A DNA stretch of 22,348 nt. Source: a virus. Both the position numbers and the translations under genes were made by a program. Position 1 is the first letter of the stretch. Each line of letters begins with the position of its first letter. Positions 2,586 through 19,924 of this stretch are shown in pieces. Below the pieces are notes generated by a model. That model saw nothing but the letters and a program-made list of their open reading frames with translations. It was not told the origin of the DNA and searched no databases. The DNA is taken from positions 1 through 22,348 of IMG/VR virus record IMGVR_UViG_3300045918_000336; one strand, 5' to 3'.

Positions 2586-2614
2586 AAACACATACCACTG
2601 AAAGGGCAAACACC

Positions 2615-3897: not shown

Positions 3898-3898
3898 A

Positions 3899-4462: not shown

Positions 4463-4464
4463 CC

Positions 4465-5486: not shown

Positions 5487-5650
5487 CTTCAATCCCGTAC
5501 CATTAGGATCGCCCCGGCTCCGTACCTTGGCCCGAGCACGCCAGAGCCATCTACCGCGACGGCATCGCCACAGGCAGGATCACCCTCAAGAACTTCACCC
5601 ACGAACCATCCCAAAAGCCCGCCCCAGAGCAGCTTGATCTATTCCATTAA
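5483..5650 (+). CDS. Small gene interrupted by an in-frame amber codon; C-terminal QLDLF motif
   Basis: ATG 5483 is coupled to the previous stop and preceded by GGGAGAG, so the initiation signals are intact. Codon 8 is TAG (5504-5506). The same frame then continues for 47 codons to TAA at 5648-5650, beginning DRPGSVPWPEHARAIYRDG and ending PAPEQLDLFH. QLDLF matches the consensus pentapeptide with which proteins bind the bacterial beta sliding clamp; that function is inference. The codon could be a nonsense mutation, a sequencing error, or a suppressed or recoded amber codon. A second amber-interrupted gene is at 8775. Promoter P2 begins over the final stop codon. Confidence 0.5.
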
Positions 5651-5686
5651 ATAGCCGTTGCTATTCTACAATAGATGCGTTACTGT
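5649..5686 (+). promoter_or_regulatory. Promoter P2 with overlapping inverted-repeat operator
   Basis: AATAGC-CGTT-GCTATT (5650-5665) forms the inverted repeat. The -35 is TTGCTA (5658-5663), the spacer is 17 bp and the -10 is TACTGT (5681-5686). The element overlaps the stop codon of the upstream small gene by two bases. TGCAGTTGTA directly after the -10 spans the same positions as CAGTTGTA after P1. A CA-rich leader with AAGGAG leads to the DUF932 gene. Confidence 0.8.
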
Positions 5687-5732
5687 GCAGTTGTAACGAA
5701 GCGCAATACCCACAAACCACAAGGAGAACAGC

Positions 5733-6728
5733 ATGTGTGCACATGAGATTGACATGACAACCGGCAAAGCAGCAATGGCCTACATCGCAGGATCAGCAAC
5801 ACCGTGGCACAACCTCGGATTTCAAGTCGCAGCAGACGCCACCATTGCCGACTGGCAAAAAGCAGGCGGCCTTGAATGGGAAGCCAAGCGCGCGGACGTT
5901 TTCTACCAAGCCGAGAACGACGTCGGCATGAGCAAGTTCGCAGACAAGTCGGTTCTCTACCGCAGCGACACCAACAAGCCCCTCTCGGTGGTGAGCAAGG
6001 ATTACAACATCGTCCAGCCCGCCGACATTCTGAACTTCTTCAGCGAAATCGCCAAGGAAGGCCACTTCTCAATCGAGACGGTCGGCAGCCTCAAGGAAGG
6101 TCGCCGCATCTGGGCACTGGCACGGGTCGGCGAGAACGCCCGCATCATGGACGACCAAGTCGCACCTTACCTGCTGCTGGCGACCAGCTTCGACGGAACG
6201 ATGGCGACCATCGGCAAGTTCACCAGCGTGCGGGTGGTTTGCAACAACACGCTGCAGGCCAGCCTGAGCAACAACGCAGGCAAGGCGCAGGTCAACATCC
6301 CCCACAGCGCCCTCTTCAAGCCCGAGCAAGTCCGCGCCGAACTGGGCATCGCAATGGATAGCTGGGAAGAGTTCAAGATGCGCGCAGACTTGATGGCGCA
6401 CCGCAAGATCAACCCGGTCGAGGTCGACGCATACCTGCAGAACCTGCTCGAACCGTTCATTCCTTACGGCACCGTGTACAACGCGGACAAGGTCAAAGCC
6501 AGCCGAGGGTACCAGAGCATCATGACGCTGTTCACCGGCAAGCAGATCGGCACAGGGCAGGACGCAATCGACGGCACGCTTTGGGGAATTTTGAACGCCA
6601 GTACGCAGTATGTGGATTGGGAAAAGGGCAAGGATCAGGACAATCGCCTGAACAACGCATGGTTTGGTACCGGAGCCAAGATCAAAGACCGCGCCTACGA
6701 AATCGCGCAGAAGATGGTGGTGGCATGA
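5733..6728 (+). CDS. DUF932 phage/plasmid-like protein (TIGR03299 type)
   Basis: The 331-residue protein matches the family found in many phages, plasmids and integrative elements. The N-terminus HEIDMTTGKAAMAYIAGSAT plus PWHNLG is the signature start. The middle has SVVSKDYNIVQPADIL and VGSLKEGRRIWALARVG, and the C-terminal part has NNAWFGTGAKIKDRAYEIA. Length is normal for the family. The biochemical role is not established. It is the first gene after P2, with AAGGAG 8 nt upstream of ATG, and shows strongly C-biased third positions, consistent with high expression. It is coupled by ATGA to the DUF2591 gene. Confidence 0.88.
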   Translation: MCAHEIDMTTGKAAMAYIAGSATPWHNLGFQVAADATIADWQKAGGLEWEAKRADVFYQAENDVGMSKFADKSVLYRSDTNKPLSVVSKDYNIVQPADILNFFSEIAKEGHFSIETVGSLKEGRRIWALARVGENARIMDDQVAPYLLLATSFDGTMATIGKFTSVRVVCNNTLQASLSNNAGKAQVNIPHSALFKPEQVRAELGIAMDSWEEFKMRADLMAHRKINPVEVDAYLQNLLEPFIPYGTVYNADKVKASRGYQSIMTLFTGKQIGTGQDAIDGTLWGILNASTQYVDWEKGKDQDNRLNNAWFGTGAKIKDRAYEIAQKMVVA

Positions 6729-7117
6729 AGACCGCAGAACTGACCGGAGCCGCCCTTGATTGGGTGGTTCAAGAGCTTGAATTTATGCATCGGGCAAAAA
6801 GTGGTGAGGTTGCAAAGCAGTGGGTTATCGACCGACACAAACAAGGCGAAGTATTCAGCAGCGCATCTACTGACTGGATGATTGGCGGGCCGATTATCGA
6901 ACGGGAAGACATCTCCTTCCGCAAGTACCACAATCCAGAAAGCGCGGCACACGGAAAATACTACGCGATGGTTTGCCAACAGAGCGGAGAGATTGTGCAC
7001 TGGAAAGGATGGGGAGCAAATACACAAAAAGGGCCATCGGCGCTCATTGCCAGCATGCGCTGCTACGTTGCATCGAAGCTGGGCGACGAGGTCGAGATAC
7101 CAAAGGAACTGCTATGA
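6725..7117 (+). CDS. DUF2591 (NinX-like) phage protein
   Basis: The protein has 130 residues. KTAELTGAALDWVVQ at the start, STDWMIGGPIIEREDISF in the middle and ALIASMRCYVASKLGDEVEI near the end are the three conserved blocks of the DUF2591 family, known from lambdoid nin regions and many other phages. Its function has not been defined. The start at 6725 is in an ATGA overlap with the DUF932 gene; the open frame further upstream is antisense-like filler. The stop overlaps the next start in the same way. Confidence 0.85.
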   Translation: MKTAELTGAALDWVVQELEFMHRAKSGEVAKQWVIDRHKQGEVFSSASTDWMIGGPIIEREDISFRKYHNPESAAHGKYYAMVCQQSGEIVHWKGWGANTQKGPSALIASMRCYVASKLGDEVEIPKELL

Positions 7118-7395
7118 AGACCATCCACAAATACACCCTAGCCATCACCGACAAGCAAACCATCCAAATGCCAGTCGGGGCCGGAATCCTGACAGTACAG
7201 AACCAGAACGAGAGTCTGTGCATGTGGGCGCAAGTCGACGACCAGCCGCACAGAGTCGAATCCCGCGCATTTGCGGTAATCGGAACAGGGCATGAGATGC
7301 GAGAATATAACTCCCTCGGATACCTCGGCACCGTCCAGTTTCAGGGCGGCGCACTGGTGTTTCATGTTTTTGAAATCGATCCGATGCCGTTCTAA
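7114..7395 (+). CDS. DUF7352-type phage protein
   Basis: The protein has 93 residues. HKYTLAITDKQTIQMPVGAG, ILTVQNQNESLCMWAQVD and LGTVQFQGGALVFHVFEI form the beta-rich pattern typical of this small phage and bacterial family. The start at 7114 is in an ATGA overlap with DUF2591, and the stop overlaps the next ATG (TAATG). No catalytic residues are known for the family. It probably forms a small beta-sandwich protein expressed with DUF932 and DUF2591. Confidence 0.8.
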   Translation: MKTIHKYTLAITDKQTIQMPVGAGILTVQNQNESLCMWAQVDDQPHRVESRAFAVIGTGHEMREYNSLGYLGTVQFQGGALVFHVFEIDPMPF

Positions 7396-7691
7396 TGACC
7401 CGACACGACCAACGCTACCAGCGCGCAGTCAAAGAACTCGAAGGCCGCGAGCTGGTGATGATTACCGACACGGAAGACCCGAGCAAAAAGATCATAGTCG
7501 GCATCGCCCGGCGCGGGGTCGGGTACGTTGAACTGGCCTGCAGCAAAGAAAAGTATGACCCGTTCGGCCTGCTGGCGATGTTCAAGCGCCACACGGGAGA
7601 CGACGAAACGAAGTACCCACAACAAAACGAAGAAACGAGGACAGCATATGAGCGAGCAATTGCAGCTACTGCCAAACCCAGTAACCGTTGA
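7395..7691 (+). CDS. Hypothetical protein
   Basis: This 98-residue protein starts at an ATG overlapping the previous TAA (TAATG). It has a basic N-terminus, a beta-rich middle (ELVMITDTEDPSKKIIVGIA) and a helical tail. Its last 44 nt overlap the next gene, much longer than the 1-8 nt overlaps elsewhere in the block. Either the C-terminus is extended or one of the two starts is set differently. No family was recognised. Confidence 0.6.
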   Translation: MTRHDQRYQRAVKELEGRELVMITDTEDPSKKIIVGIARRGVGYVELACSKEKYDPFGLLAMFKRHTGDDETKYPQQNEETRTAYERAIAATAKPSNR

Positions 7692-7986
7692 ATTTGACGG
7701 GGAGCAGCACACACTCAGCGCGCAGCTGACGAACGACCTGCCGATCACCCTGTACGACAATGAATGGCTCAAGAAAAACCACCTGAAGCTGGCCGACCTC
7801 TTCCCCGAGACGTGGACGCACATGCAGAACCTCAACATGCTGGCCATCGGGTACCACCTGAAACTGCTGGGGGTGGACTGGCGCAACAGCTTCGAGCTTG
7901 GGGTGTGCATGTCGGCGCTGAAGCAGCACGGCGGGATATTTGAGCACAGCAGGGAGAACGTCAATCTGGTACGCCGAGTACCTTAA
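7648..7986 (+). CDS. Hypothetical phage protein
   Basis: The 112-residue protein starts at 7648, where GAGGA lies 7 nt upstream. The N-terminal SEQLQLLPNPV is an extended segment that loosely resembles clamp-binding QLxLx motifs, but it is not a full consensus. The rest is mixed alpha/beta with NDLPITLYDNEWLKKNHLKL and a helical end. It overlaps the preceding gene by 44 nt and is followed after 16 bp by the gene at 8003. Function unknown. Confidence 0.65.
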   Translation: MSEQLQLLPNPVTVEFDGEQHTLSAQLTNDLPITLYDNEWLKKNHLKLADLFPETWTHMQNLNMLAIGYHLKLLGVDWRNSFELGVCMSALKQHGGIFEHSRENVNLVRRVP

Positions 7987-8002
7987 CCATAAGGAGAGCA
8001 AG

Positions 8003-8371
8003 ATGGAAGTCAGGATAGATGGTCAACTTTATTCGATAGTGCCGGAGCAAGTAACCGACAAAACAGTAATGGCAGCACTCGATGTTCGCCTCGGAAACAC
8101 CGACGCCGGAGACAATATCACCGTGCGCGACTACCTGCGAGAATTGCTGCTTACGCTTTGGGTCGAGCAGGAAGGATTCAGCGGAAAACGGCCTTTCGGT
8201 AATAGTGGATGGCAACGCGAAATATACATGCCGCTGATCAAGGCCGGTTTTATTCCGGGCAAGTTGGATGGTGATGGATACATCGATGAGTTCGATGAGC
8301 ACGAAGGATGTGAGTACATGAAGCAGTTGATAACCGCAGCATTTCACGGATTCACGGTTGATCGCGCATGA
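8003..8371 (+). CDS. Conserved hypothetical phage protein (FSGKRPFGNSGW type)
   Basis: The 122-residue protein carries LLLTLWVEQEGFSGKRPFGN followed by SGW. This block recurs in small acidic phage proteins of unknown role. The start at 8003 has AAGGAGA 6 nt upstream. The protein is acidic, with a DGDGYIDEFDEHEG stretch resembling a metal-binding loop; calcium binding has not been shown. Its stop overlaps the start of the cysteine-cluster gene (ATGA at 8368). Confidence 0.7.
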   Translation: MEVRIDGQLYSIVPEQVTDKTVMAALDVRLGNTDAGDNITVRDYLRELLLTLWVEQEGFSGKRPFGNSGWQREIYMPLIKAGFIPGKLDGDGYIDEFDEHEGCEYMKQLITAAFHGFTVDRA

Positions 8372-8778
8372 GCCTCTGCGACACATGCTGCAAGCCCGGC
8401 CACTGCTGCCAGAATATCCCACTCTGGGGTAATGAAATGGATTTGGACATTCCAATGAGCAACACGAAATGGAAGAAACGAATCCACAAAATTCTTGATC
8501 GAATGGATAGAGACGCCAGACTGTATACAGAGCAATTCGGCAAGAAACACGGAAACCACGGGGTCTCATGTTTTATTCCAGCCCACCTTCATTATTCAAT
8601 AACCATAGCCGGAGTACAGCAAGGAAAGCCAAGGTTCAAGTGCTTAAATCTGCTTGATGGCCGGTGCTCAGATTACGAAAATAGGCCGGAGCTTTGCAAG
8701 ACGTACAAAGAGGGATCGGATTCACTTTGTGCGGAGTATTGCGGGCCTCCTTTCCTTTACCCAAATGGAACGCCATGA
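8368..8778 (+). CDS. YkgJ-like cysteine-cluster (zinc/iron-chelating) protein
   Basis: The protein has 136 residues. The N-terminus has C4, C7, C8, C13 and C14 (CDTCCKPGHCC). The second half has FKCLNLLDGRCSDYENRPEL followed by CKTY and two further cysteines. This is the CxxCC plus C-L-DGRC-YExRPxxC layout of the YkgJ family, predicted to bind zinc or an iron-sulphur cluster. The exact function of the family is uncertain; some members act with protein demethylation or flagellin modification systems. A phage copy may modify a host protein or protect a metal site, which is inference. It is coupled at both ends by ATGA. Confidence 0.75.
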   Translation: MSLCDTCCKPGHCCQNIPLWGNEMDLDIPMSNTKWKKRIHKILDRMDRDARLYTEQFGKKHGNHGVSCFIPAHLHYSITIAGVQQGKPRFKCLNLLDGRCSDYENRPELCKTYKEGSDSLCAEYCGPPFLYPNGTP

Positions 8779-9089
8779 GACCACTCACAAAACTCATGCT
8801 GAAGGTGCTCATCGACCTGCATCAAGGCCGTGGCTCGCACTTCGTCGATTGCACCAAGCGTGGGCAGATGGCAGGACGGTAGAGCACACTGCGCGGACTG
8901 CGCGACCGGCGTCTGGTCGAATGGCATGGCGGGATAATTTACATGCTCACCGAGCGCGGAAAAGAGATTGTGGCGCTGCTTACACCACAGAACAGGGAAA
9001 CCATCATCGTGGGCGGCAGACGTCCCTGCAGAGCATCACTTCTTGGCGTGCTTCGCCGCCTGCTTGGCAAGGAACCCATCAAGCCATAG
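8775..9089 (+). CDS. Winged-helix-like protein interrupted by an in-frame amber codon
   Basis: ATG 8775 overlaps the previous stop (ATGA). The frame reads 35 codons to TAG at 8880-8882 and then continues for 68 codons to TAG at 9087-9089. The two parts form one winged-helix pattern: LTKLMLKVLIDLHQGRGSHF, CTKRGQMAGR, [amber], STLRGLRDRRLVEWHGG and YMLTERGKEIVALL. The amber falls at the start of the recognition-helix region, where relatives carry an ordinary residue, so the downstream half is under the same fold. CAG or GAG would become TAG by one change. The last 54 nt overlap the convergent Mu-F-like gene. Nonsense mutation, sequencing error and suppression are all possible. Confidence 0.5.
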
Positions 9090-10196
9090 GCTGAACTCGT
9101 CGGCGGTCGCGCCTTCACCTAGAGCAACCCACGCACCACGACAATGCGGGTGAAAAACGCCACTGGTCACTGTCCACATTTCCTCCGGAGCACGCTTCAC
9201 CAGCGCACCACCGACACGCTTGTACGGAGAAGCCGAGCGCCCGATGTTATTTTTTCCCACCCAGACGGAATTATCCCAGTCCTTGTCCTTCGCGTCCGGA
9301 GCCACCACGGTGACGACCTTCCCGTTCATCTTCTTGCAGAACGGGCATGCGCTCGCGTACTGCTCAACCCGCTTTACCTTGCCGCCGGGCGCCACGTTCG
9401 CAATGAAGGCATTGTTCGCCAGTTCGCCAGCCTCGGTCACGGCGATCCGTCGCCAGTCACGGTTGTGCTCTGCAAAGTTGTCGAACAGCTTCTGCTCGAG
9501 CGACGAGTTTTCCTGCTTCACGCCAAGCCGCTTGCCAAGCTCGAAGTCGAGAATCGCGCTCTTGGTCTTGTGCCGGACGGAATCTGACAGGCCGACGATA
9601 TAGTCCGCAATCTTGGCCTCGCCGAACGAGAGCATGGCGTCGTGGTAGTTGATCTTGCGCAGCGCGGCGTCGAGTGCGCCTTTCTTTGCATATTCGACCA
9701 TGAGCGCATCGGCCTGCGCTTCAGTGATGACGGCCAGAGCAGCTTGCACCCGTCCCATGATCATCGCGCGCTTCGCCAGCCATTCAGCCTGCGTCGCGGC
9801 GAAGTCGGGCGGTAGGTGCTTGTTCACCAGATAGTCGACCAGCAGCATGTAGTCGTTCGCCGACCACATTTCCTTCGGGATGCCTTCGAGGTACACCTTG
9901 GCTGCTTTGGATTCAGTCTCAGACCAGCGCGTCATGCCGTTGGGGATTACAGGCTTCGGAGCCGGTGCTGCGGTCTTGGATTCTTTCAGCCATCCCAACA
10001 GTTCTAGTTTGAGAGAGTCGAGCGCACTAACGCCTTTGGCCGTGGCTTGCTCGATCAGATTGCGAATGAATATAGACTCATGCGGGCGCCAGATATCGTC
10101 ATCGCCGGAAGGCATCGAAAGCGCTTTGTGCATTTCCTCGAGCGTGCATTCGCAGCCTTCGTCATGCAGAGCGCCAATATCAACGAGCAGCGTCAC
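9036..10196 (-). CDS. Phage head morphogenesis protein (Mu-F / SPP1 gp7 family)
   Basis: The 386-residue protein's C-terminal half is the Mu-F domain: TEAGELANNAF (254-264), CPFCKKMNGKVV (284-295) and FHPHCRGAWV (348-357), the Cys/His pattern typical of the family. These minor head proteins associate with the portal and procapsid. The N-terminal 200 residues are helical. The start is a GTG at 10196 in a GTGA overlap with the zinc-ribbon gene. It is the last gene of the minus-strand structural run and converges on the plus-strand P2 block with a short 3' overlap and no visible terminator. Confidence 0.88.
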   Translation of the reverse strand: MTLLVDIGALHDEGCECTLEEMHKALSMPSGDDDIWRPHESIFIRNLIEQATAKGVSALDSLKLELLGWLKESKTAAPAPKPVIPNGMTRWSETESKAAKVYLEGIPKEMWSANDYMLLVDYLVNKHLPPDFAATQAEWLAKRAMIMGRVQAALAVITEAQADALMVEYAKKGALDAALRKINYHDAMLSFGEAKIADYIVGLSDSVRHKTKSAILDFELGKRLGVKQENSSLEQKLFDNFAEHNRDWRRIAVTEAGELANNAFIANVAPGGKVKRVEQYASACPFCKKMNGKVVTVVAPDAKDKDWDNSVWVGKNNIGRSASPYKRVGGALVKRAPEEMWTVTSGVFHPHCRGAWVALGEGATADEFSLWLDGFLAKQAAKHAKK

Positions 10197-10378
10197 AGTC
10201 TAACTCCCCGAGTAATTTTCTTGTCTTCATCATCCCGGCACTGAACGCATACCCGCTTGATCAGACGCGGCTTATCATATCCGCAGACAGAACAAATCCC
10301 CCGATTTCCAAGGGGGATGTCTTTTGATTCTCGGGCAATGTGTTCAGGAAGATATCTATCCGTGTACGCATCTGCCAT
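10193..10378 (-). CDS. Small zinc-ribbon protein
   Basis: The 61-residue protein has two CxxC pairs, CSVC and CVQC (ICSVCGYDKPRLIKRVCVQC), spaced as in a small zinc ribbon. The ATG at 10378 is chosen because it follows the preceding stop by 10 nt; an in-frame TTG at 10417 would lengthen it and overlap the membrane protein gene, and neither has a strong ribosome site. Its stop overlaps the GTG start of the head morphogenesis gene, so coupling is likely. It may bind nucleic acid or assist assembly; the role is unknown. Confidence 0.6.
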   Translation of the reverse strand: MADAYTDRYLPEHIARESKDIPLGNRGICSVCGYDKPRLIKRVCVQCRDDEDKKITRGVRL

Positions 10379-10388
10379 GTCGCATTCG

Positions 10389-10703
10389 TCACCCACCGCC
10401 AGCCTTATATATTCCAAGCACAGTTAGTAGCTTTAAAGTGAAACCTGCGGCAATTAGACTAAGCAACAAAAACATCAGCGCGACCGCGCCTTTTTTCGCC
10501 AACTCCAGACGGAGTTCAGACCAGAACCTCTCCTGAGCGATTGCTGCGTCGATCATTTTCTGGTGAGCATCATGGTGCCCCTTTGGGTCATCATTCGGGA
10601 AGGCAGATAGAAGCACTTTGTACTTTCCGGTTAACTCTTCGAGCGCCTTGCAAACTCTACCACTCGGCACTCCGCATTGAGTTTCTTCGTTCTGCGTTGG
10701 CAT
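10389..10703 (-). CDS. Single-pass membrane protein, possibly lysis-related
   Basis: This 104-residue protein has a soluble N-terminal region (about 1-70) with GHHDAHQKMIDAAIAQERFW, then one strong hydrophobic helix, GAVALMFLLLSLIAAGFTL (about 72-90), and a short tail. Many phages encode similar His-containing small proteins with a C-terminal membrane helix; some are annotated holin-like without proof. The start at 10703 has GAGGT 6 nt upstream. An 8-bp-arm hairpin and the minus-strand 16-bp motif lie just upstream of the Shine-Dalgarno. Confidence 0.65.
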   Translation of the reverse strand: MPTQNEETQCGVPSGRVCKALEELTGKYKVLLSAFPNDDPKGHHDAHQKMIDAAIAQERFWSELRLELAKKGAVALMFLLLSLIAAGFTLKLLTVLGIYKAGGG

Positions 10704-10781: not shown

Positions 10782-12614
10782 TTAAAATTTATACGCTCCA
10801 ACACTCCAAGGGCTAACCCTTGTCGCTTTGATGTAGTCATCCCAAACTGGAACCGGAGTACCTGCGCCGATTGCTGGGGAGCCTGCTTTCAGAGCGAAGT
10901 GAGCGGGAAGGGTTGGAGTTGCACTAACGAATACATTCGATGCTGGCTGATTGTAGGCAACTAGATTGTGATCGGAAATCACTGCAAGTCCATTGCCATA
11001 AGTAATGAATGAATTAGTATCATTTGGAGCAACGAGAACATTATTCCTGATTGTTGTTGTCAAAGAATCAACAGAAGTGCTTACCGCCAACACACGATTA
11101 TTATTAGGCACATAGGTTGAGTAGAACGTATTGTTATAGATATATGTCAAATCAGAAGGTGGCCCTAATTCGCCGGGATTCACCGAAACTCCCATCCCTG
11201 TACCGGACGTACCTATATTCATAATGTTATTTCTAACTGTCGTTCCAACTGTATTGACAATATTAACTGCCAAGTTATTCCCTGCTGCTGCCGAGAAATA
11301 GTTTCTCTCCACAATAATATTTCTCAACCTCTCATCATGCGATGTTGCTTGTGAACCAATATGAATATCCCAAGGTGTTGCAACACCCCCTTGAAGTATA
11401 TTGTCTGCAATTACCACCTGTTCACTATATGTTCCGTCCCAAGGTGCAGGATTCCCCACGCCGCGACTAGCGGAGTGGAGATCAATGCAGTGCTTTCCTG
11501 ATGATAGATCAAAATTCTGAGGGTTCCAGATATCATTATTTGAGATAACGCCCTTGGTTATTTTCGGTGCACGAAGAACATGCTCACCACCAGCCACTCC
11601 AGTTGCAGGCCGTGTGTTGTCTATGTGGTTCCCTTGAAATGCAAAGCGTTCACTTAATATCCATACATTCACATGGCCCGCCCCATTATTTATTCCATTA
11701 GAGGTGCTATCCTGAATAGTGAGCTGATCTGCGTTTGGTATGGAAGCGTCAGAAGTAGCAAATGCGGCATCAGTGTTAGTCACATCCACGCGAAGAATTG
11801 TGATCTGCTTTCTATCTAGGAGTCTGATACCATTAGAGGACGTGGTTCCGATTGCATCGAATGCCATATCCATCACACGCCAATCATCACCCGTATTAAA
11901 TGCTATTGTTGAGTGACCATCTCCGGTGACTTGTACGAATGGTTTGGCACCTGTTCCGTAAGCTCCGATGAGTCCTGGCCCTGCTTGTGTGATATTGCTT
12001 GCAGTGCTTGCAGTGAAAGTCTCTCCACGATGTAGCAACACTCGCTTCACTGTGCTGGAGATATACCCTAGTGCTGTAGGTAGATCAGCGATGTTTGGCA
12101 CCTGAGTTGCGCCAGCAGGGCATCCGGTAAAGGATGTTGTGGTTGAGATACAGACCGTGGCAGCACCTACGAACTGAGTGTCAGCAGCAGTTACTGTTAT
12201 CGTCTGTGTAGTGGTAGTTGAAGTGGTGCCGTTGTTTATAGTCAGCGTTGCTGTGTAGGTTCCAGCAGTCTCATAGATGTGCGCCGCTGCGGGTCCAGTC
12301 GCTGTGTTCTTGCTCGTTCCTGCTTTTGCACCATACAACCAATTGGTAGAAGTTCCGTCCCCGAAGTCCCATGTGTATTCGAGTTGGTGAAATGCACAAT
12401 TAAAGAGGGCATTAACCGGACAAGTCAGAGATGAGTCAGTAGTTGCACCAGCATCGAAGAATACGGAGAGGGGAGCTACGCCAGATGTGCGAGCTGGTAC
12501 GAGTGATGCAGTAATTGTTCCCCCACTCTGCGCGAGCTGAAACGCGGGGAAATATGGAGTACTCCATGCATTCAGAGTAATCGCACAAAGGAATAAGGCG
12601 AGTGGTTTTTTCAT
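10782..12614 (-). CDS. Exported PKD plus right-handed beta-helix protein
   Basis: The 610-residue protein has a Sec-type signal (MKKPLALFLCAITLNAWS, cleavage near 18). A PKD-like beta-sandwich follows (about 40-142), with WDFGDG at 82-87 and HIYETAGTYTATL at 112-124. The remainder (about 190-600) shows repeated short strands with Asn/Ile ladders, such as VISNNDIWNP, VIADNILQGG, VERNYFSAA and TYIYNNTFYS, typical of a right-handed parallel beta-helix. Beta-helices in phages often form receptor-binding or polysaccharide-degrading spikes, and PKD domains are common in exported carbohydrate-binding proteins. A signal peptide is unusual for a virion protein. The gene is visibly richer in A+T than the portal and head genes, suggesting separate acquisition. 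No catalytic triad is assigned. Confidence 0.75.
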   Translation of the reverse strand: MKKPLALFLCAITLNAWSTPYFPAFQLAQSGGTITASLVPARTSGVAPLSVFFDAGATTDSSLTCPVNALFNCAFHQLEYTWDFGDGTSTNWLYGAKAGTSKNTATGPAAAHIYETAGTYTATLTINNGTTSTTTTQTITVTAADTQFVGAATVCISTTTSFTGCPAGATQVPNIADLPTALGYISSTVKRVLLHRGETFTASTASNITQAGPGLIGAYGTGAKPFVQVTGDGHSTIAFNTGDDWRVMDMAFDAIGTTSSNGIRLLDRKQITILRVDVTNTDAAFATSDASIPNADQLTIQDSTSNGINNGAGHVNVWILSERFAFQGNHIDNTRPATGVAGGEHVLRAPKITKGVISNNDIWNPQNFDLSSGKHCIDLHSASRGVGNPAPWDGTYSEQVVIADNILQGGVATPWDIHIGSQATSHDERLRNIIVERNYFSAAAGNNLAVNIVNTVGTTVRNNIMNIGTSGTGMGVSVNPGELGPPSDLTYIYNNTFYSTYVPNNNRVLAVSTSVDSLTTTIRNNVLVAPNDTNSFITYGNGLAVISDHNLVAYNQPASNVFVSATPTLPAHFALKAGSPAIGAGTPVPVWDDYIKATRVSPWSVGAYKF

Positions 12615-12615
12615 T

Positions 12616-13344
12616 TCAATTACCTAGGTAAACTGCAATAGTGGAATATATATCTGACCCCGGAGTGGTTGCATCAGCATCGTAAGATACTGCGTTCGGG
12701 AGAACTAAACTCATCTTGAGGTTGCGCAATCCTACGTAAGGAGTTTCTCCACCATCATGTGTCCAACCATTCGTTGCCCCGTAGGTTGTAATCGTCCCAC
12801 TATCTACAGTAATTGACCCGAAGGCGAATGCCGGTGCTGTTGCGGGGGTGAATGGGTTGCTAATACTGGTATCATATACATGCGTCTGATGCGTGGTGCT
12901 AAACGGAGAAGCTTTTAATCCAGACACTTCATATAATTGTATATCAGCCCCGACCGATGAGGCGAAATGCGCAGTTACTGTTGTGGCTCCAGCTACTACG
13001 TTAGATGCGTGAGCAAACCATAGAACGCCATAACCAGCACCAACTGTGGCTATTGGCCCAGCATCTATAACCCATGTGTTTGCGCCATCGGTAATAGATG
13101 TTAGGGTAGCGTTACTTGAGACAACTATGTGAGCAAGGGCTGTATTACCTGATGTTAAACTTGAGACGAACGCTTTTGAGAGGGTCGTTATTCCACCTGC
13201 GAATCCAAGGTTTGCGGCACCACCTTGAACGATCACTACGGGTATCGCAGCCGCTCCACCATCCCCAGCCAGCACCATGCGCCAGTCCACAGCTTGGGCG
13301 GAAGTTGCGATCAGTAGTAAGAAACAGAGTAGGCATTTTTTCAT
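12616..13344 (-). CDS. Exported beta-sandwich protein of unknown function
   Basis: The 242-residue protein has a clear Sec signal ending AQA (MKKCLLCFLLLIATSAQA, cleavage after 18). The mature part contains FVSSLTSGNTALAHIVVSSN, TSITDGANTWVIDAGPIA and ASSVGADIQLYEVSGL. This is the strand pattern of a concanavalin/jelly-roll-like domain seen in exported proteins of environmental bacteria and some phages. The gene ends one base before the PKD/beta-helix gene starts, so the two are probably co-expressed. No catalytic motif is seen. Confidence 0.65.
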   Translation of the reverse strand: MKKCLLCFLLLIATSAQAVDWRMVLAGDGGAAAIPVVIVQGGAANLGFAGGITTLSKAFVSSLTSGNTALAHIVVSSNATLTSITDGANTWVIDAGPIATVGAGYGVLWFAHASNVVAGATTVTAHFASSVGADIQLYEVSGLKASPFSTTHQTHVYDTSISNPFTPATAPAFAFGSITVDSGTITTYGATNGWTHDGGETPYVGLRNLKMSLVLPNAVSYDADATTPGSDIYSTIAVYLGN

Positions 13345-13346
13345 GA

Positions 13347-14138
13347 TTAGCTACCTCTACAGCCAACCAACACCGTACCAGACGCTTTCTTAACCAGACA
13401 GGCAACACCACTCTGTGCGCAGATCGACAAGTAGCCAGATGCACTATCAGGAGTTGCTACTCCAGAAGCCGCGAAAGTTACTTTGCCAACCCCAGCCTGC
13501 TCAACACAAATACGGTCGCCCTCTACCATAGTCAGGGTGTTACCCAACGTCAGAGTAATAGCTCCCGAGCTCGCCGCACTGATTGGACTGAGAGTATTCA
13601 GGTCGGTAGCAGTGAACGTGTGATTCGCCGTGTAGGTTGGAGCGGTAGCATGATGGATCGGCGTGATGGATGTGGAACTCGCCGCCACGAAAGTATCGTT
13701 GGTTGCAACAGTTCCGCTGATCTCCAGCACACCACCCACCTGACTTGCCGCAATACCTGTAATCAACGATCCGTCTTTAGCTGGGTATTGGCTGGAACTG
13801 TTCAGAACTACAGGGCCGCTTGCTGCGTTGGCTGCGTTCTGTACTGCGCTTGCTACACCAGAGCCGAGACCAGTGACGTTGGTAATCGCCACGGAAGATG
13901 CGCCACCTGACGCCGAAGCCACTCCGCTTGCATTGACGGTGATGGTTGAGCCATCCGCCATGAACCCACCATTTGCATACGGCAGCTTCCCTTTGCAGCA
14001 GCTTTTCCCAAGGTTTATAAACGACCCTGCCGCTGCGGCAAAGGCATCCTTCTCAGACCCTAGCGCACCTATGATCAACACCCCGACCAACAGGGCAATC
14101 AAGAAGCGTTGAAAGTATGTGGATAATTTATTTTTCAT
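13347..14138 (-). CDS. Tail-fibre-like repetitive protein with N-terminal export signal
   Basis: The 263-residue protein starts at 14138, where GAGGT lies 5 nt upstream; a TTG at 14150 is less likely. Residues 1-34 look like a signal peptide or anchor (FLIALLVGVLIIGALGS, then DAFA). The rest is low-complexity Ala/Ser/Gly/Thr sequence. The C-terminal block ITLTLGNTLTMVEGDRICVE, then QAGVGKVTFAASG, resembles the ends of many tail-fibre proteins (strand-rich, with a GD-Q-G-G-V pattern). It ends two bases before the next gene. An extracellular or virion-surface role is inferred. Confidence 0.65.
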   Translation of the reverse strand: MKNKLSTYFQRFLIALLVGVLIIGALGSEKDAFAAAAGSFINLGKSCCKGKLPYANGGFMADGSTITVNASGVASASGGASSVAITNVTGLGSGVASAVQNAANAASGPVVLNSSSQYPAKDGSLITGIAASQVGGVLEISGTVATNDTFVAASSTSITPIHHATAPTYTANHTFTATDLNTLSPISAASSGAITLTLGNTLTMVEGDRICVEQAGVGKVTFAASGVATPDSASGYLSICAQSGVACLVKKASGTVLVGCRGS

Positions 14139-14146
14139 GTCACACC

Positions 14147-14491
14147 TCAAGAGTAGTAGGCCAAGAATGTATCGGGAGTTGCGCCGCTAGAGTCGGGGGC
14201 AACATTGATCAGGGTGATGGATGCGCCGACACGGGTTAAATCGCCAGCGGCCACCGTCAAAACTTGACCGTTATAAACGATCAACAATTTACCATCCGAG
14301 GATGGGATACCGGCCAGCGTGAATATTTTGTTCACGCCATTCTGCGTCCCGCCGGGAACTTCTGCCCATGCAGAGAAGCCTCCACCAGCACCAGAAAGAG
14401 CCAACGTAACCGCCGCCGCAATTTCCTGCGCAGCAGGCCAACTTGTAAGCGCCGTCGCCAGACGCTGAACTGTGCTATCGCTCAAAGACAT
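14147..14491 (-). CDS. Fibre-like virion protein with repeated beta-hairpin domain
   Basis: The protein has 114 residues. It has a helical N-terminus and then GTQNGVNKIFTLAGIPSSDG, LLIVYNGQVLTVAAGDLTRV, ITLINVAPDSSG and TFLAYY. This matches the common phage fibre/decoration motif in which G-x-NG-x-x-x-FTL, NGQ-L, ITL and LxAYY strands make a small beta-sandwich. The start at 14491 has AAGGAGAT 6 nt upstream, and the 16-bp minus-strand motif sits 32 nt upstream. It lies between the probable head-associated gene and the exported proteins. Confidence 0.72.
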   Translation of the reverse strand: MSLSDSTVQRLATALTSWPAAQEIAAAVTLALSGAGGGFSAWAEVPGGTQNGVNKIFTLAGIPSSDGKLLIVYNGQVLTVAAGDLTRVGASITLINVAPDSSGATPDTFLAYYS

Positions 14492-14522: not shown

Positions 14523-14538
14523 ATTGTCTTGTCACGAT
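14523..14538 (-). promoter_or_regulatory. Minus-strand 16-bp motif, copy 2
   Basis: The minus-strand sequence ATCGTGACAAGACAAT agrees with copy 1 in 13 of 16 positions. It begins in the last codons of the upstream gene and lies 32 nt upstream of the start at 14491, nearly the same spacing as copy 1 (33 nt). Because part of it is coding (the TCG TGA end), chance similarity is harder to exclude. Confidence 0.35.
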
Positions 14539-15200
14539 TGCTGGTCGCTCAATGGCAATTCTGCCTGCTTAGGCTTGCGAGCCTCGGCCAGATCGTTGAT
14601 CAAAGCCTTGGCAAGTTTTTCAGAGCTTGCAACCTTGTCGGCCAGCATCGAGATGGCAGCAGCAAGACCTTGAGACTGCGCATTCTGCGTTGCCAGCAGA
14701 TTATCAAACGACTTGCGCAACTCCTGCGCTTCCGATCCGGAACGGTAGACGAAGTTATCACCGAACTCGGCGCGCACGTAGTCCATCATCGGCTCGAATC
14801 CGGCCTTTGCCAGCTCGGCAATCACTTGTGCCTTCTGCAGCTTGGTCTCGGTTGCCGGTGGGGCCGTTTCTTCTGGGTGCTCTTCATCACCGACCGATCC
14901 GCGCACGAAAACGAGCTTCCCGCTTTCATCCTTGGCAATGAAGCCGTCCTCGCCTTTGTCCACGATTACCAGCTTCTTGTCGGCACGTTTGCGGTGCCCG
15001 AGCACCTTATCCCACGTAACCTCATGCTGTTCGTTCGCTTCATCCTCGCACCGACAGCCATCATTGCCGATGGAAATCACTTTGCCGTGATGTGCGCCTT
15101 TGTCCGTGGAGAAGTATATATGGTCGTCGTGCGAGACCATAGGCCGAGGCGCTTTGTCGTCCTTGGTGTTCGGAACAGATGTGAGTTTGACCGGCTTCAT
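14532..15200 (-). CDS. Probable head-associated phage protein following the portal
   Basis: The protein has 222 residues. The start at 15200 overlaps the portal stop (TAATG) and has a GGGGGA site. The N-terminal 100 residues contain two small beta-barrel-like units, HGKVISIGNDGCRCEDEANE and KKLVIVDKGEDGFIAKDES, with VTWDKVLGHRKR between them. This pattern is seen in phage proteins encoded beside portal or Mu-F genes. The C-terminal half is a long helical region with MMDYVRAEFGDNFVYRSGSE and a probable coiled coil. Scaffolding or head assembly is inferred from position; no protease motif was seen. Confidence 0.65.
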   Translation of the reverse strand: MKPVKLTSVPNTKDDKAPRPMVSHDDHIYFSTDKGAHHGKVISIGNDGCRCEDEANEQHEVTWDKVLGHRKRADKKLVIVDKGEDGFIAKDESGKLVFVRGSVGDEEHPEETAPPATETKLQKAQVIAELAKAGFEPMMDYVRAEFGDNFVYRSGSEAQELRKSFDNLLATQNAQSQGLAAAISMLADKVASSEKLAKALINDLAEARKPKQAELPLSDQQS

Positions 15201-17068
15201 TATTCCCCCAGCACGTAGACACACGACAGCGGAGTGCCGAAGTCGAGCGCCTTCTTCAGTGGCTTGTCGTCCTCTGAATCATCTTCTGCTGAAACCCCAG
15301 CACTTGCCTTGTCAGCGGCAGGCTCGGCAGCATCAGGCGCCGCGTCACTGGGCGCGGGTTCTTCAGTTTGCGTATTTTCAATCGGTCTATTTTCGCCTTG
15401 GTCATCTTGCGATTCCGATCCTATTTGATTTTGCGGAGGCTCTTTGCTTCCATCACCACCATCTTGTGCAACTTCCTGAGCGCCGGGCTGCGCACCTTCT
15501 TCTTCGCCGGTACCGAAGTCCTGCGGCTGCTTGGCCTGCATGATCTGAGTCCACGGCCCGATCAGGGTGGGATTCAGCGGAGCGTCGCCCAGTTCGCCAT
15601 CCATCTTGTCGCGGCCATCCTCGGCGCGCATTTCATTGACGGTAAGGGTGAGCTTCGCGCGCTCGTTGCGCTGGGCCTCGTCGGCATCGTCCAGACCAGT
15701 CCAGCGGAAGCAGTAGTCCTCACTGAACGACGACACAACGTAGTCGGTGAGCAGGTTTTCGTAATACTGCAGCAGCGGGCGCAAGCCCTTGTCTTTGGAG
15801 TCGGCCAACTTCTCTGCGGTGTCGGAGCCGGATAAGGCGGACTTGCCAGAAGAGAACGCCTCGAAGTTAATCTCGTCCGGAGACATGCCGTACACGGCAC
15901 AGATCATGGATGTTAAAAATGTCATCCAAGATTTGAAATACATTTCAGAAAATTCTACGCCGAAGTTCTCAAAACTCGCCTTTGACTCAGCATCCTTCGA
16001 CACCAGAACCGGTACCGACCACTGGTTGTTGATCCCTTTTACCATCGAATTCCAGTAGCGCTTGAACGCCACCAAATCCTCCGGCGTGTAATTCCCTTGG
16101 AGGTGCATCACGCCACGCGGAATAGAGTTGTCGCTGAACCCGCGCATATTGAGCGTCATGGCATTCAGGAAGCCGGTTACGACCTTTACCAGCAACTCGA
16201 CCTCTGACAGCCCGTAACCAGCCAGCAGAACGTCCGTGCGAGGGTTTCTGGCCTCCAGAATCAAGTCGTCGCGGGTGTAGGCGGTGCAGATTCGGCCTTG
16301 AATGACTTGTAGGGCAAAGACCTCATCGTCGCCTTTGTAGCCAAGCTCTGCGCACAAGCGCATGGTCGCACCGTCAACAGCGTACAAACCGGCAATCCCG
16401 AGGTCGCGGTCGCGCCGGAGTTCGGTCTCAATTGGGGCGGAATCCATGATGAGCGAGTCGCGCACCGACTTACCCATGAAGGCGTGGAAATTATCCCGCT
16501 TCAGGCTGCGCCGTTTGCGCGCGTTGAATTCCCATCCGCAATTGGTGAAGAAACGCTGCAGCAGATTGACCGACTTCTGACCTTCATCGTCAAGCTGGTG
16601 CTCTTTGTCTTGGTGACGGATCACAAATCCGGGGCCGCGCCCTGATTCCTGCACGCGGCAGAAGCGCTGAACTTGGCGCACGCGGGTCATTACCACGGCA
16701 TTCAGCACTGGGGTCTGCTCGACCATCATCCGCATGGCATCGTAGGACAACGGAGACGGGCGCTCGAAGTAGTCACCCATAATGGAGATTTGCATGTCGT
16801 CAACCCAGACCGACTGCATGCCGACCTTCTTCTCGACAGCGGTGCGAGACGGGAAGGGAACGATGTTCGTCTGGGCGTTGGCCTTGGCAAGCTCCATGTC
16901 CATCATGTCGGCGCGCACTTCGGCGGCAATCTGCGCCAAGTCGCCCATCGGCATGATCAGGCCGGATTCTGACTTTGGTGCATATTGGGCTTGCAACTGA
17001 CCAAGCGCATCATTGCGCTCGGATGGGCTGGCATTGGGATCAAAGGCAGTGTTCTGGGCTTGGCTCAT
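15200..17068 (-). CDS. Phage portal protein
   Basis: The 622-residue protein shows the portal pattern: PVLNAVVMTRVRQVQRFCRV near the start of the core, YGLSEVELLVKVVTGFLNAM, and KSWMTFLTSMICAVYGMSPD followed by EINF near the end of the core. Portals form the dodecameric ring through which DNA enters and leaves the head. Residues about 520-600 are an acidic, Pro/Glu/Ala-rich disordered tail ending in a short conserved-looking segment (PLKKALDFGTPLSC). The gene starts the minus-strand structural run; its ATG lacks a good Shine-Dalgarno. A terminase gene, usually directly upstream, is not present on this side; the plus-strand P3 block is there instead. Confidence 0.9.
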   Translation of the reverse strand: MSQAQNTAFDPNASPSERNDALGQLQAQYAPKSESGLIMPMGDLAQIAAEVRADMMDMELAKANAQTNIVPFPSRTAVEKKVGMQSVWVDDMQISIMGDYFERPSPLSYDAMRMMVEQTPVLNAVVMTRVRQVQRFCRVQESGRGPGFVIRHQDKEHQLDDEGQKSVNLLQRFFTNCGWEFNARKRRSLKRDNFHAFMGKSVRDSLIMDSAPIETELRRDRDLGIAGLYAVDGATMRLCAELGYKGDDEVFALQVIQGRICTAYTRDDLILEARNPRTDVLLAGYGLSEVELLVKVVTGFLNAMTLNMRGFSDNSIPRGVMHLQGNYTPEDLVAFKRYWNSMVKGINNQWSVPVLVSKDAESKASFENFGVEFSEMYFKSWMTFLTSMICAVYGMSPDEINFEAFSSGKSALSGSDTAEKLADSKDKGLRPLLQYYENLLTDYVVSSFSEDYCFRWTGLDDADEAQRNERAKLTLTVNEMRAEDGRDKMDGELGDAPLNPTLIGPWTQIMQAKQPQDFGTGEEEGAQPGAQEVAQDGGDGSKEPPQNQIGSESQDDQGENRPIENTQTEEPAPSDAAPDAAEPAADKASAGVSAEDDSEDDKPLKKALDFGTPLSCVYVLGE

Positions 17069-17336: not shown

Positions 17337-17384
17337 GTGAACTGTCAACAAAAAGAGCAACCCAACCAAACCACGGAGACCAGC

Positions 17385-17720
17385 ATGCCAGAAACATACG
17401 GAGTAACCACCACCGAGCGCCTGATTAACATCGACGACCGGAATCTCAGGGGCGGAATCGTTCACGTCGATATCGTCGATCAACGCCTGAACATCGGAAA
17501 TGGTGTAGCAGACCGGCGCGAATACACGTACCAAGAACTGTGGGAAGCGGCACGGAAGCTGAATGCATCTGACGCACTGCTGGTCGCGCTCGAAAAGGTC
17601 ACCGCCGAACTGAAACAGCTTCACGCGCACCACTACGGAACGTGCGAAGGTGGTTGCCCAGCAGAGACGTACATCGCTGAGGCCGAAGCCGCCATCAAGC
17701 AAGCGAAGGGGGAAGCATGA
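17385..17720 (+). CDS. Hypothetical phage protein, first gene of the P3 block
   Basis: This is a 111-residue protein with GGAGA 7 nt upstream of ATG 17385. The N-terminal half is beta-rich (GGIVHVDIVDQRLNIGNGVA). The C-terminal half is helical with a CEGGC pair (HHYGTCEGGCPAETYIAEAE), which could bind a metal together with the preceding histidines. No family was assigned. It is coupled by ATGA to the next gene. Confidence 0.68.
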   Translation: MPETYGVTTTERLINIDDRNLRGGIVHVDIVDQRLNIGNGVADRREYTYQELWEAARKLNASDALLVALEKVTAELKQLHAHHYGTCEGGCPAETYIAEAEAAIKQAKGEA

Positions 17721-18124
17721 GCGCCAACCAGACAATGCTGTTCTGCCTGCGCAGCATCATGAACTCGCTGCCGCAGAACAAGGACTGGCTCTCGCCGGAT
17801 GTTGAACGCTTGGCACGCGAGGCCATTGCGGTACCAGAAACGGACGAGCCAAAGCTGACGTGGCAAAAGTCTACTGCCCACCAATACACAGCCGGAGCCG
17901 AGCACCTCTACCTTGGCCGGTGGCGAGTGGGCGGTACGTTTTACAACGCATGTCGAGACAAGGACGACCAGAACGTCTGGGGCGCAGCCTGCCGCCTGCC
18001 CGGCCTCAAGGATGTGCTCTGGCACTTCGTAACCAGAGAAGAGGCCAAGGCCAAAGTCGAGAAGGCGGTCAAACACTGGATGAAGCATACGAACGACGCG
18101 CTTAATACAGAACTCAACAAATGA
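17717..18124 (+). CDS. Hypothetical phage protein
   Basis: This 135-residue protein was not recognised. The start at 17717 overlaps the previous stop. It is rich in Trp and His, with YLGRWRVGGTFYNACRDKDD in the middle and a Lys-rich C-terminal helix (EEAKAKVEKAVKHWMKH). It is soluble and shows no signal peptide. It belongs to the P3 operon. Confidence 0.65.
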   Translation: MSANQTMLFCLRSIMNSLPQNKDWLSPDVERLAREAIAVPETDEPKLTWQKSTAHQYTAGAEHLYLGRWRVGGTFYNACRDKDDQNVWGAACRLPGLKDVLWHFVTREEAKAKVEKAVKHWMKHTNDALNTELNK

Positions 18125-18540
18125 CCTGCACATGCGCCGGATGCAACGGAAACTGCGCAGGCCACAATTGCGAGATTTACTGCGGCAGGTCGTGCTCCGG
18201 AGAGCCTGAAAACGATTTGACTTTGAGCATAGCGCCTGCTGCGCTACCGAGCATCAAAGAACGCAACAAAAACAGGGAGCCAAACATCATGCTTGACGAA
18301 GTCTACGCACCATCCACCATCTGCAGCCGCTGCATACACTACGCTGATTCATGCGTCGAGCCACCCTGCATTGACTGCCTGACGCCGGAGATTGGCTCCC
18401 CTAACTGCAAGTACGAGCCGACCAAGACAGTACGCACCAAGATGGTGGTGCTCGCATTCATCGACGAACACGCTATCGACATCGCGGCGACCATCATCCT
18501 CGGCACCGTTTTATTGGCTTTAATAGAGGGCAGATCATGA
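18121..18540 (+). CDS. Cys-rich protein with C-terminal membrane helix
   Basis: The protein has 139 residues. The first 26 contain eight cysteines (CTCAGCNGNCAGHNC, then CGRSC). A second Cys cluster follows at about 68-95 (CSRCIHYADSCVEPPCIDC). Near the C-terminus, IDIAATIILGTVLLALI is a probable transmembrane helix. An internal ATG at 18289 has GGGAG 9 nt upstream, so a shorter 83-residue form containing the second cluster and the helix could be made from the same frame. The two Cys modules with a linker suggest fusion of two small genes. A metal-binding, membrane-tethered role is inferred. The start is in an ATGA overlap with the upstream gene. Confidence 0.6.
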   Translation: MTCTCAGCNGNCAGHNCEIYCGRSCSGEPENDLTLSIAPAALPSIKERNKNREPNIMLDEVYAPSTICSRCIHYADSCVEPPCIDCLTPEIGSPNCKYEPTKTVRTKMVVLAFIDEHAIDIAATIILGTVLLALIEGRS

Positions 18541-18935
18541 TCACAATGCACAAAGTCTTAAATTCCAGTCAGGTATTCGAGTTCGGATACGATCCTGACA
18601 CAAAGCGCCTGACGGTCATTTTCACCTCCGGCGGATACGACTACATCGACGTACCACAGAACGTGTTCGACGAGATGGTGAAGCAGAACAACGTCGGACT
18701 GAGCATGGGCAAGTTGATCGCCAACCACATCAAGACGCACTTCAAGTTCGAGAAGCACCCCATCGCGCCCATTACTCCCAAGGCGAAGTGCGGCAACGTG
18801 CTGACAGGCAGCCCGTGCGAGAACGCCACCAAAGAGCAGTGCGACGGTTGCCTCGCCTGCCCAGACACCGGCCAACCGGCCCCATGCGATAAATTGCCTT
18901 GCTGCCAAGGCGTGAAAGGATGCGATGAAAACTAA
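18537..18935 (+). CDS. KTSC-domain protein with Cys-rich C-terminal extension
   Basis: The protein has 132 residues. Residues about 9-68 form a KTSC domain: SSQVFEFGYDPDTKRLTVIF, GGYDYIDVPQNVFDEMV and a final HIKTHFKFEK. KTSC domains are small, of unclear function, and occur alone or fused to RNA- or DNA-related domains. The extension from 85 onward has nine cysteines (C85, C94, C102, C105, C108, C117, C122, C123, C129), including CDGCLAC, suggesting metal binding. ATG 18537 overlaps the previous stop. A short frame beginning MKTKDGG overlaps its last 11 nt. Confidence 0.78.
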   Translation: MITMHKVLNSSQVFEFGYDPDTKRLTVIFTSGGYDYIDVPQNVFDEMVKQNNVGLSMGKLIANHIKTHFKFEKHPIAPITPKAKCGNVLTGSPCENATKEQCDGCLACPDTGQPAPCDKLPCCQGVKGCDEN

Positions 18936-18994
18936 AGACGGAGGTGAGTCGGCATTCCCGACTCTTTGTCAGGCTGGTGATATGGCGATATCGC
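18925..18994 (+). pseudogene. 5' remnant of a DGGxAFP-type phage gene interrupted by P4
   Basis: ATG 18925 has AAAGGA just upstream. It reads MKTKDGGESAFPTLCQAG and then ISHSG, like the N-terminus of the widespread phage proteins that continue into GMTLRDYFA. Directly at that point the P4 operator/promoter begins (18995). The frame happens to stay open through P4 into the gene at 19060, so a fused 139-residue product is possible. A remnant cut by cassette insertion is preferred because the family's continuation is absent. Confidence 0.45.
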
Positions 18995-19030
18995 ATAGCG
19001 GTTGCTATTCAACGAAGACCGGCGTACAGT
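18995..19030 (+). promoter_or_regulatory. Promoter P4 with overlapping inverted-repeat operator
   Basis: ATAGC-GGTT-GCTAT (18995-19008) has the -35 TTGCTA (19002-19007), a 17-bp spacer and the -10 TACAGT (19025-19030). It lies inside an open frame (the DGGxAFP remnant). A separate 10-bp palindrome GCGATATCGC precedes it. The leader ends AAAGGGAAACC before ATG 19060. Confidence 0.78.
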
Positions 19031-19059
19031 GCTCGCCATCAACCAACGAAAGGGAAACC

Positions 19060-19344
19060 ATGTCACGCGACGCAACAATAATCACGCTTGAGCAAGCACT
19101 CAAGCTGCTGCCAGAAGGCAAGTACATCCACACATTCAGGGGAAAAGGCGTCATGTTTGGAGCCGACTGGGAGCGCAGCGACATTGAAAAGGCGCTGGCC
19201 AAGGTCGAAGAGATTCACATCTCCGGCGACGTCGCCCGCACCATGTTTCACGGCATCGCCATCATCAACGACGAGAGCTGGCTGTTCATCGAGACCGCCA
19301 AGACGAACGAGGTGCTGGACTTTCTGAGCAACCCGACAGTTTGA
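19060..19344 (+). CDS. Hypothetical protein, first gene of the P4 block
   Basis: This is a 94-residue protein. ATG 19060 is chosen over the in-frame upstream Met (18925) because it has AAAGGGA 5 nt upstream and sits just downstream of P4. It is mixed alpha/beta: LEQALKLLPEGKYIHTFRGK, then two helices and a beta region (GIAIINDESWLFIET). No metal or catalytic motif was seen. Function unknown. Confidence 0.65.
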   Translation: MSRDATIITLEQALKLLPEGKYIHTFRGKGVMFGADWERSDIEKALAKVEEIHISGDVARTMFHGIAIINDESWLFIETAKTNEVLDFLSNPTV

Positions 19345-19384
19345 ATTTAAACCCAGCAGTCCAACCACCAAAGAAGGAGCAACC

Positions 19385-19567
19385 ATGAAATCCAAGCAAC
19401 CCACCCCCAAGGCCGCGCTCGCCATGCCCGAGCACTCCATCGCCAAGCGCATCGAGGCCCAGACCGAGCAGGCAATCTTCGACGTGATGGTCGAGATGAA
19501 CCTGACGCAGAGCATCGCGCATCACATCATCGAGAACGCGCTGAACCGCTACGTCGCCACCCTGTAA
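19385..19567 (+). CDS. Small basic helical protein
   Basis: The 60-residue protein has AAGGAG 5 nt upstream of ATG 19385. After a basic N-terminus it forms two helices (AQTEQAIFDVMVEMNLTQSI and HHIIENALNRYVATL), possibly a small dimeric DNA-binding or adaptor protein. The leader AACCACCAAAGAAGGAGCA resembles the P-block leaders, but no promoter copy lies upstream. Function unknown. Confidence 0.6.
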   Translation: MKSKQPTPKAALAMPEHSIAKRIEAQTEQAIFDVMVEMNLTQSIAHHIIENALNRYVATL

Positions 19568-19569
19568 TC

Positions 19570-19863: not shown

Positions 19864-19895
19864 CCGTTGCTATTGCAATAAGACCAGAGTAAAGT
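19861..19895 (+). promoter_or_regulatory. Promoter P5 with overlapping inverted-repeat operator
   Basis: TAGC-CGTT-GCTA (19861-19872) keeps most of the repeat, though the outer A of the left arm is G. The -35 is TTGCTA (19867-19872), the spacer is 17 bp and the -10 is TAAAGT (19890-19895). It overlaps the stop codon of the upstream gene. The leader CACAACAAACCACGGAG leads to the Gp37/Gp68 gene. Confidence 0.78.
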
Positions 19896-19924
19896 GCAAG
19901 CACAACAAACCACGGAGCAACAAC

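Follow-up and report, generated by a model that had tools for sequence, protein, structure and literature searches.

Three consecutive genes of a tailed-phage contig, encoding the proteins P0003, P0002 and P0001, probably form an accessory cassette of fibres or adhesins that would be exported by the Sec pathway, fold in the periplasm, be freed at lysis and bind virions, receptors and debris; we hold this reading with moderate confidence. The genes occupy positions 10,782 to 14,138 of the complete IMG/VR contig IMGVR_UViG_3300045918_000336, whose 22,348 bases are here together referred to as the window. The analysis confirms the three proteins as predicted bearers of Sec-type signals and supports the view that the trio is an inserted accessory segment, in a slot of variable content among the head genes. 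Moreover, in its predicted features the trio resembles what is apparently a recurring, undescribed class of Sec-signalled phage fibres, which we refer to as the cysteine-pair class.

Export signals were scored with a home-made heuristic that combines the charge of the n-region, the hydrophobic core and the -3/-1 cleavage site, with a threshold of at least 4. All three proteins possess a positive n-region, a hydrophobic core and small residues at -3 and -1, and their scores are 5.60 (P0003), 6.16 (P0002) and 4.37 (P0001); the three open reading frames (ORFs), their starts and their N-terminal signals are as a preliminary description of this DNA had reported. The score was calibrated on three groups of Escherichia coli K-12 proteins that we picked from the annotation. 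Of these, 12 of the 16 exported proteins reached the threshold (14 of 16 at a score of at least 3.5), as did 2 of 17 inner-membrane and 0 of 34 cytoplasmic proteins. For background, 6 of 138 annotated coding sequences in eight relatives score at least 4, or 1 of 112 when sequences of at least 100 amino acids are counted, and 1.4% of 2378 mechanically called genes reach the threshold, compared with 0.25% of their own shuffled N-termini. A run of three consecutive signal-bearing genes is expected about 1e-5 to 5e-5 times per about 20 genes; this expectation and the rarity of signals in the relatives therefore mean that three in a row are not due to chance.

The portal protein encoded upstream is 54–58% identical to the portals of phages with genomes of 90–95 kb, namely Bordetella phage PHB04, Aeromonas phage ST4, Pseudomonas phages Dolphis, Jeremy and Touem01, Enterobacter phage phiT5282EW and Yersinia phage fHe-Yen8-01. 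Gauged from the size of these relatives, the window makes up roughly a quarter of a PHB04-like genome. A 99% identical contig (L010, record G001) extends past the left end of the window, where it encodes a helicase, a head protease, a major head protein and a tail sheath protein; the segment therefore lies among structural genes, within the head-gene cluster of a phage that has a tail sheath. We collected loci of this kind through alignments of the portal and minor-head proteins and measured 63 distinct intervals between the two genes, which range from -1 to 7766 bp, 25 of them exceeding 1 kb. Portal and minor head are nearly adjacent (about 240–290 bp by our own gene calls) in Dolphis, Jeremy, phiT5282EW and fHe-Yen8-01; the last has flanking genes annotated as particle-associated and a slot without trio-like genes. 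The slot of PHB04 encodes a protein with a RelA/SpoT domain, another with an HD domain and the annotation (p)ppGpp synthetase/hydrolase, and a phosphatase; that of Touem01 has a gene annotated as GDSL lipase. In contig L088 it holds a signal-bearing 623-residue protein with the classical fibre repeats VANGGTGATTLTG, followed by a 511-residue protein that weakly matches pectate lyase near the N-terminus. In L080, a contig without portal, a signal-bearing 695-residue protein has a repeat protein on one side and a slot-type gene on the other, and in L065 a signal-bearing protein with a fibre-type repeat follows the minor head.

The trio segment had also been described as A+T-rich, and this was borne out. 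Its G+C content is 48.6% versus 57% in the portal gene, and 10 of 190 sliding windows of the segment's length are lower, the lowest beginning at 10200. The A+T excess is strongest at third codon positions, where G+C reaches 0.52, 0.38 and 0.39 in the trio versus 0.69 in the portal and 0.72 in the minor-head gene.

No fibre match was found for the trio in Pfam, PHROG or NCBIfam at E<=0.001, and P0003 matched no family at this cut-off. P0003 contains the fibre-type motif LGxGVAxA, which elsewhere occurs in only two of 15059 ORFs, both on fibre contigs (L209 and L269), and the L269 protein that shares it bears a signal itself. P0001 alone of the trio has a PKD domain (PKD_4, E 2.7e-12), as had been proposed; the beta-helix proposed along with it found no support in Pfam, NCBIfam or PDB sequences, and the single-sequence AlphaFold models were unusable, with a pLDDT (predicted local distance difference test) of 33 for P0001 and 41 for P0003. 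The relatives of P0001 are one 99% identical copy in L010, which ends at residue 202, and two weak matches among viral contigs and annotated phages. The shared stretch (L010 1-1233) stops at about position 12010 of the window, past the PKD domain, and the break may mark a fork of the assembly in a strain-variable region. Three proteins that looked like P0002 by eye (266 amino acids in L297, 916 in L149 and 370 in L011) were rejected as homologues, with no BLAST match to any of them; the best match of P0002 in this comparison set was to another protein, at E 0.15.

We then compared two sets of fibres from viral contigs. Set A was fetched by the common fibre repeat GNGGTGATTLT and comprises, among the matches listed (120 stretches), 98 distinct proteins, 75 of them closed at the 5' end. 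The second set was obtained by scanning for W[ST]G[ST]C-x7-GDG[ST]C, a two-cysteine repeat first noticed as common to L088 and L246, one of set A's two signal bearers; we take it to resemble the usual LRGDGTW repeat of phage fibres. This cysteine-pair set consists of 28 distinct proteins, 24 closed and 4 open at the 5' end. Some entries overlap: L246 belongs to both sets, L305 and L088 are one contig, and L299 and L317 come from a single contig. Two of the 75 closed proteins of set A, among the matches listed, score at least 4, compared with 18 of the 24 in the cysteine-pair set, where 22 reach at least 3.5. With L309 dropped, whose start was miscalled, 18/23 against 2/75 of the set A matches listed gives a Fisher p of 2.7e-13. 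The preliminary description held that ordinary tail proteins are made without signals: this is right for the majority of fibres (73 of 75 of the set A matches listed) and wrong as a rule, and because the cysteine-paired subclass usually bears signals, a signal alone is no argument against a fibre.

Several further features mark this class. Its predicted cleavage sites are of the classical kind, with alanine at -1 in 17 of 22 proteins and at -3 in 16, with glutamine at +1 in 9, the score itself rewarding alanine-type sites; in an alignment of close relatives the signal sequence drifts and its form is kept. Cysteines outside the selecting motif number 0.85 per 100 amino acids versus 0.18 in the signal-less fibres among the set A matches listed (p 7e-7, in a set itself selected by cysteines), and their count is even in 12 of 14 proteins of the class. 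In a further parity count the number is even in 13 of 15 distinct proteins (14 of 16 rows, L246 standing there twice), versus 15 of the 40 signal-less fibres that have cysteine. The first fibre repeat begins at a median of 50 residues past the predicted cleavage site versus 220 from the initial methionine in signal-less fibres, a pattern picked post hoc, and the signal would occupy the place of the longer N-terminal part of ordinary fibres. Two of 23 class fibres end in the S74 chaperone of endosialidase. Among the neighbours of signal-bearing fibres (104 of 141 called proteins scanned) we found 16 matches to tail-fibre PHROGs, 8 to phrog_6 (baseplate wedge), 6 to phrog_120 and 4 to baseplate hub. 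In L302, the one contig tested, the fibre adjoining the signal-bearing gene is related to proteins of Bcep781-like, Xanthomonas and Acinetobacter phages, whose fibres at that place are signal-less. Matches to L302's fibre in Motura, Cr-LKS3 and MW202475 are signal-less too. A search of isolates with the consensus N-terminus gave no match.

The possibility that these are bacterial proteins was tried and rejected: the cysteine pattern has 4 matches in 84,980 bacterial and archaeal genomes, and only L322 lies in a fibre frame. Because there is only this one real fibre frame, the signal-bearing cysteine-pair fibres look like a viral feature, the counts coming from viral and bacterial collections of different size and not being normalised. 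An unrelated phage contig repeats the layout of the window (L297:1236-6859): a short gene is followed by signal-bearing proteins of 570 (a fibre), 266 and 725 residues (the last with a score of 3.72) and a membrane protein. The two trios share no significant sequence similarity; the short gene of L297 (87 amino acids), directly upstream of the signal-bearing genes, weakly matches the gene in the same place in the window (E 0.026). Among the open-licence papers listed in literature searches, none describes Sec-signalled tail fibres by its title or abstract.

Several results weigh against reading the trio as a cassette of this kind. The motif W[ST]G[ST]C-x7-GDG[ST]C is absent from P0001, P0002 and P0003; therefore the trio is not a member of the class by sequence, and is class-like at most in its working. 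P0002 and P0003 have no homologue in the viral contigs or annotated phages searched, and because of this the link to the class rests on the signal, the cysteines, one short motif and the context. P0002 lacks mature cysteines and P0001 has an odd number, while the cysteine statistic comes from the cysteine-selected set mentioned above. The heuristic score also flags 2 of 17 membrane proteins. In the clade of the window, just 2 of 63 intervals contain a signal-bearing gene (score of at least 4), those of the window and of L088. Finally, isolates related to the contigs with the cysteine motif, namely Bcep1, PhiXhv-18, AbP2, PA-1 and XapPhi1, have signal-less fibres at that place.

If the trio is such a cassette, its place and packing suggest that it would be made late, together with the structural proteins. 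Judged by their sequences, the products would be exported by the Sec translocase and cleaved by signal peptidase I, and oxidative folding in the periplasm may pair the cysteines of P0003 (6 in the mature protein) and perhaps of P0001 (5). They may be expected to wait in the periplasm until lysis, because no outer-membrane export system was recognised beside the genes. Once released by lysis they would find themselves near progeny virions, receptors and cell debris and may bind these, docking on virions, acting free through receptor masking, exclusion of other phages or coating of the infected cell, or acting in some other way. A broader proposition is that tailed phages of a widespread class build part of their receptor-binding apparatus outside the cytoplasm, by Sec export of fibres and periplasmic disulphides, with these fibres joining finished virions only at lysis; we regard it as rather doubtful.

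Two sharper versions of the cassette reading differ in what happens after release. In one, the products are true virion fibres with a late extracytoplasmic route, which are exported, folded oxidatively and docked at lysis on virions assembled in the cytoplasm. We consider this possible, well short of probable. The signal-bearing fibres of the cysteine-pair class occupy the locus of the tail fibres, behind genes for baseplate and fibre proteins, their two S74-ended members point the same way, and at the equivalent place PA-1 and AbP2 encode a spike or fibre that lacks a signal. However, the class proteins seem to be without a long N-terminal part for anchoring on the virion, and L302-type contigs have signal-less fibre genes adjoining; therefore the virion may not need the signal-bearing ones. 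In the other version, for which we would likewise claim only a tentative standing, the products are free or cell-bound adhesins of the periplasm or surface, blocking the receptors that the infected cell and the debris present. Envelope-associated adhesins acting during infection had been suggested at the outset, and they fit as this one of the two live readings. The short N-terminal part ahead of the repeats agrees with masking, and Llp of phage T5 is a periplasmic phage protein that blocks the receptor FhuA (PMC9586334). Against it, a large multidomain fibre does not resemble a small lipoprotein, no lipobox was seen in the trio, and no outer-membrane export route was recognised beside it.

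An island of lysogenic conversion (a moron) that remodels the surface of the lysogen, which the preliminary description had put forward, is improbable. It would explain an A+T-rich insert among structural genes, and the signal-bearing Lom of phage lambda is indeed encoded between tail-spike and tail-fibre genes (PMC12309495). But no integrase, repressor or other lysogeny gene was recognised within the window, which covers about a quarter of the genome, the promoter and terminator patterns did not rise above shuffles (5 promoters versus 6.0 expected), the trio is packed at 1–2 nt in line with the structural genes, and fibre-like or enzyme genes are found in the slots of some relatives. That ordinary cytoplasmic tail proteins have hydrophobic N-termini by chance, or were given wrong starts, is very improbable: the score is a heuristic, P0002 has an internal methionine at residue 23 and the ribosome-binding sites ahead of the three starts are not strong, but such scores occur in 1/112 genes of relatives and 0/34 cytoplasmic controls, triple runs are as rare as given above, and signals are enriched in the cysteine-motif class.

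The genes of the slot and its borders are listed in Table 1.

Table 1. Genes from the portal to the minor head protein in the window
Feature	Coordinates	Strand	Evidence
P0003, fibre-like, signal-bearing, 263 aa, 6 mature cysteines	13347..14138	-	Sec score 5.60; LGxGVAxA motif
P0002, signal-bearing, 242 aa, 0 mature cysteines; beta-sandwich suspected by eye	12616..13344	-	Sec score 6.16
P0001, signal-bearing, 610 aa, PKD at residues 77-142; C-terminal part beta-helix-like by eye	10782..12614	-	Sec score 4.37; PKD_4
Signal-less 114-aa protein, directly upstream of the trio	14147..14491	-	Weak match (E 0.026) to 87-aa L297 gene
Conserved portal-proximal protein, SH3/KOW-like module by eye	14532..15200	-	72% identity to a copy in L002; most slot loci have weaker relatives
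Portal protein, at the slot's upstream border	15200..17068	-	PF04860 E 3.9e-14; phrog_12 E 1.8e-38
104-aa protein, holin-like by eye, with a single C-terminal membrane segment	10389..10703	-	Sequence; no family match at E<=0.001
67-aa small protein, last gene of the slot	10193..10396	-	ORF call; identical in L010
Minor head / particle-associated protein, at the slot's downstream border	9036..10196	-	40-45% identity over 88-98% to nine phage records, two annotated as minor head or particle associated protein

The trio genes are separated by 2 and 1 nt. The SH3/KOW-like family after the portal, recognised by eye, is also found at L006:13734-15215 and L080:3449-4999, and in relatives its members carry effector-like domains as fusions: PHB04 has RelA_SpoT (E 4.4e-7), L080 has Zeta_toxin (E 5.9e-24), and others were seen by eye; its products may be effector cargo carried by the virion. 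Directly after the minor head, four isolates of the clade encode a small signal-bearing cysteine-rich protein of 65–78 amino acids (L007:15086-15289, L008:7636-7872, L014:7205-7402 and L017:7197-7403). Small plus-strand gene blocks at 2391-8778 and 17337-22268 flank the minus-strand structural segment of the window. The left block parts the minor head from the genes for a lysozyme-like protein and for an InPase/helicase protein; in PHB04, InPase-like and methylase/helicase genes directly follow the minor head. At 1-921 an InPase domain (E 2e-38) is joined to the start of a DNA-helicase-like protein, which has 1599 amino acids in L010. The lysozyme-like protein at 1546-2016 (Phage_lysozyme2 at E 4.6e-4, below the cut-off) has a signal score of 4.73 and, by its sequence, is likely a Sec-exported endolysin. 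The Rfam search gave no match.

Signal-bearing fibres are odd, because in the usual view the whole phage tail is assembled within the cell. With the cysteine-pair class, the place where a fibre folds and the moment at which it meets the virion become an experimental question. The class points to disulphide-stabilised phage adhesins and, if its members act free, to a new kind of receptor-masking protein. A fibre subclass with signals, paired cysteines and the gene place of tail fibres also breaks the rule of thumb by which the lack of a signal indicates a phage protein; the absence of signal peptides has served as an argument that diversified binding proteins come from phages (PMC6199706).

Among known systems, ordinary tail fibres with GNGGTGATT repeats, some of them ending in S74, are close to the cysteine-pair class, which has the same repeat type and neighbourhood and S74 in two members. 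They differ in that 73 of 75, among the matches listed, are signal-less, and in being cysteine-poor with a longer N-terminal part. Lambda Lom is likewise signal-bearing and encoded inside a tail-gene cluster, but it is an outer-membrane barrel expressed by the lysogen and not a fibre (PMC12309495). T5 Llp is likewise exported to the periplasm and acts on a receptor, but it is a small superinfection-exclusion lipoprotein and not fibre-like (PMC9586334). In Xanthomonas phage PBR31, gp40 bears a signal peptide and resembles tail-associated hydrolases; it is, however, a single esterase that its authors assigned to lysis (PMC10975493). The mosaic adhesive trimeric (MAT) fibres of Bdellovibrio bacteriovorus are exported and adhesive, with a signal peptide followed by domains like those of phage tail fibres and S74 at the end of some (PMC10769870). 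By this description they are like the cysteine-pair class in signal, domain type and occasional S74 end, but they are encoded by a predatory bacterium and not by a phage, and all of them have a conserved domain of about 130 amino acids after the signal. Therefore phage-like fibres with signals and S74 can be exported adhesins.

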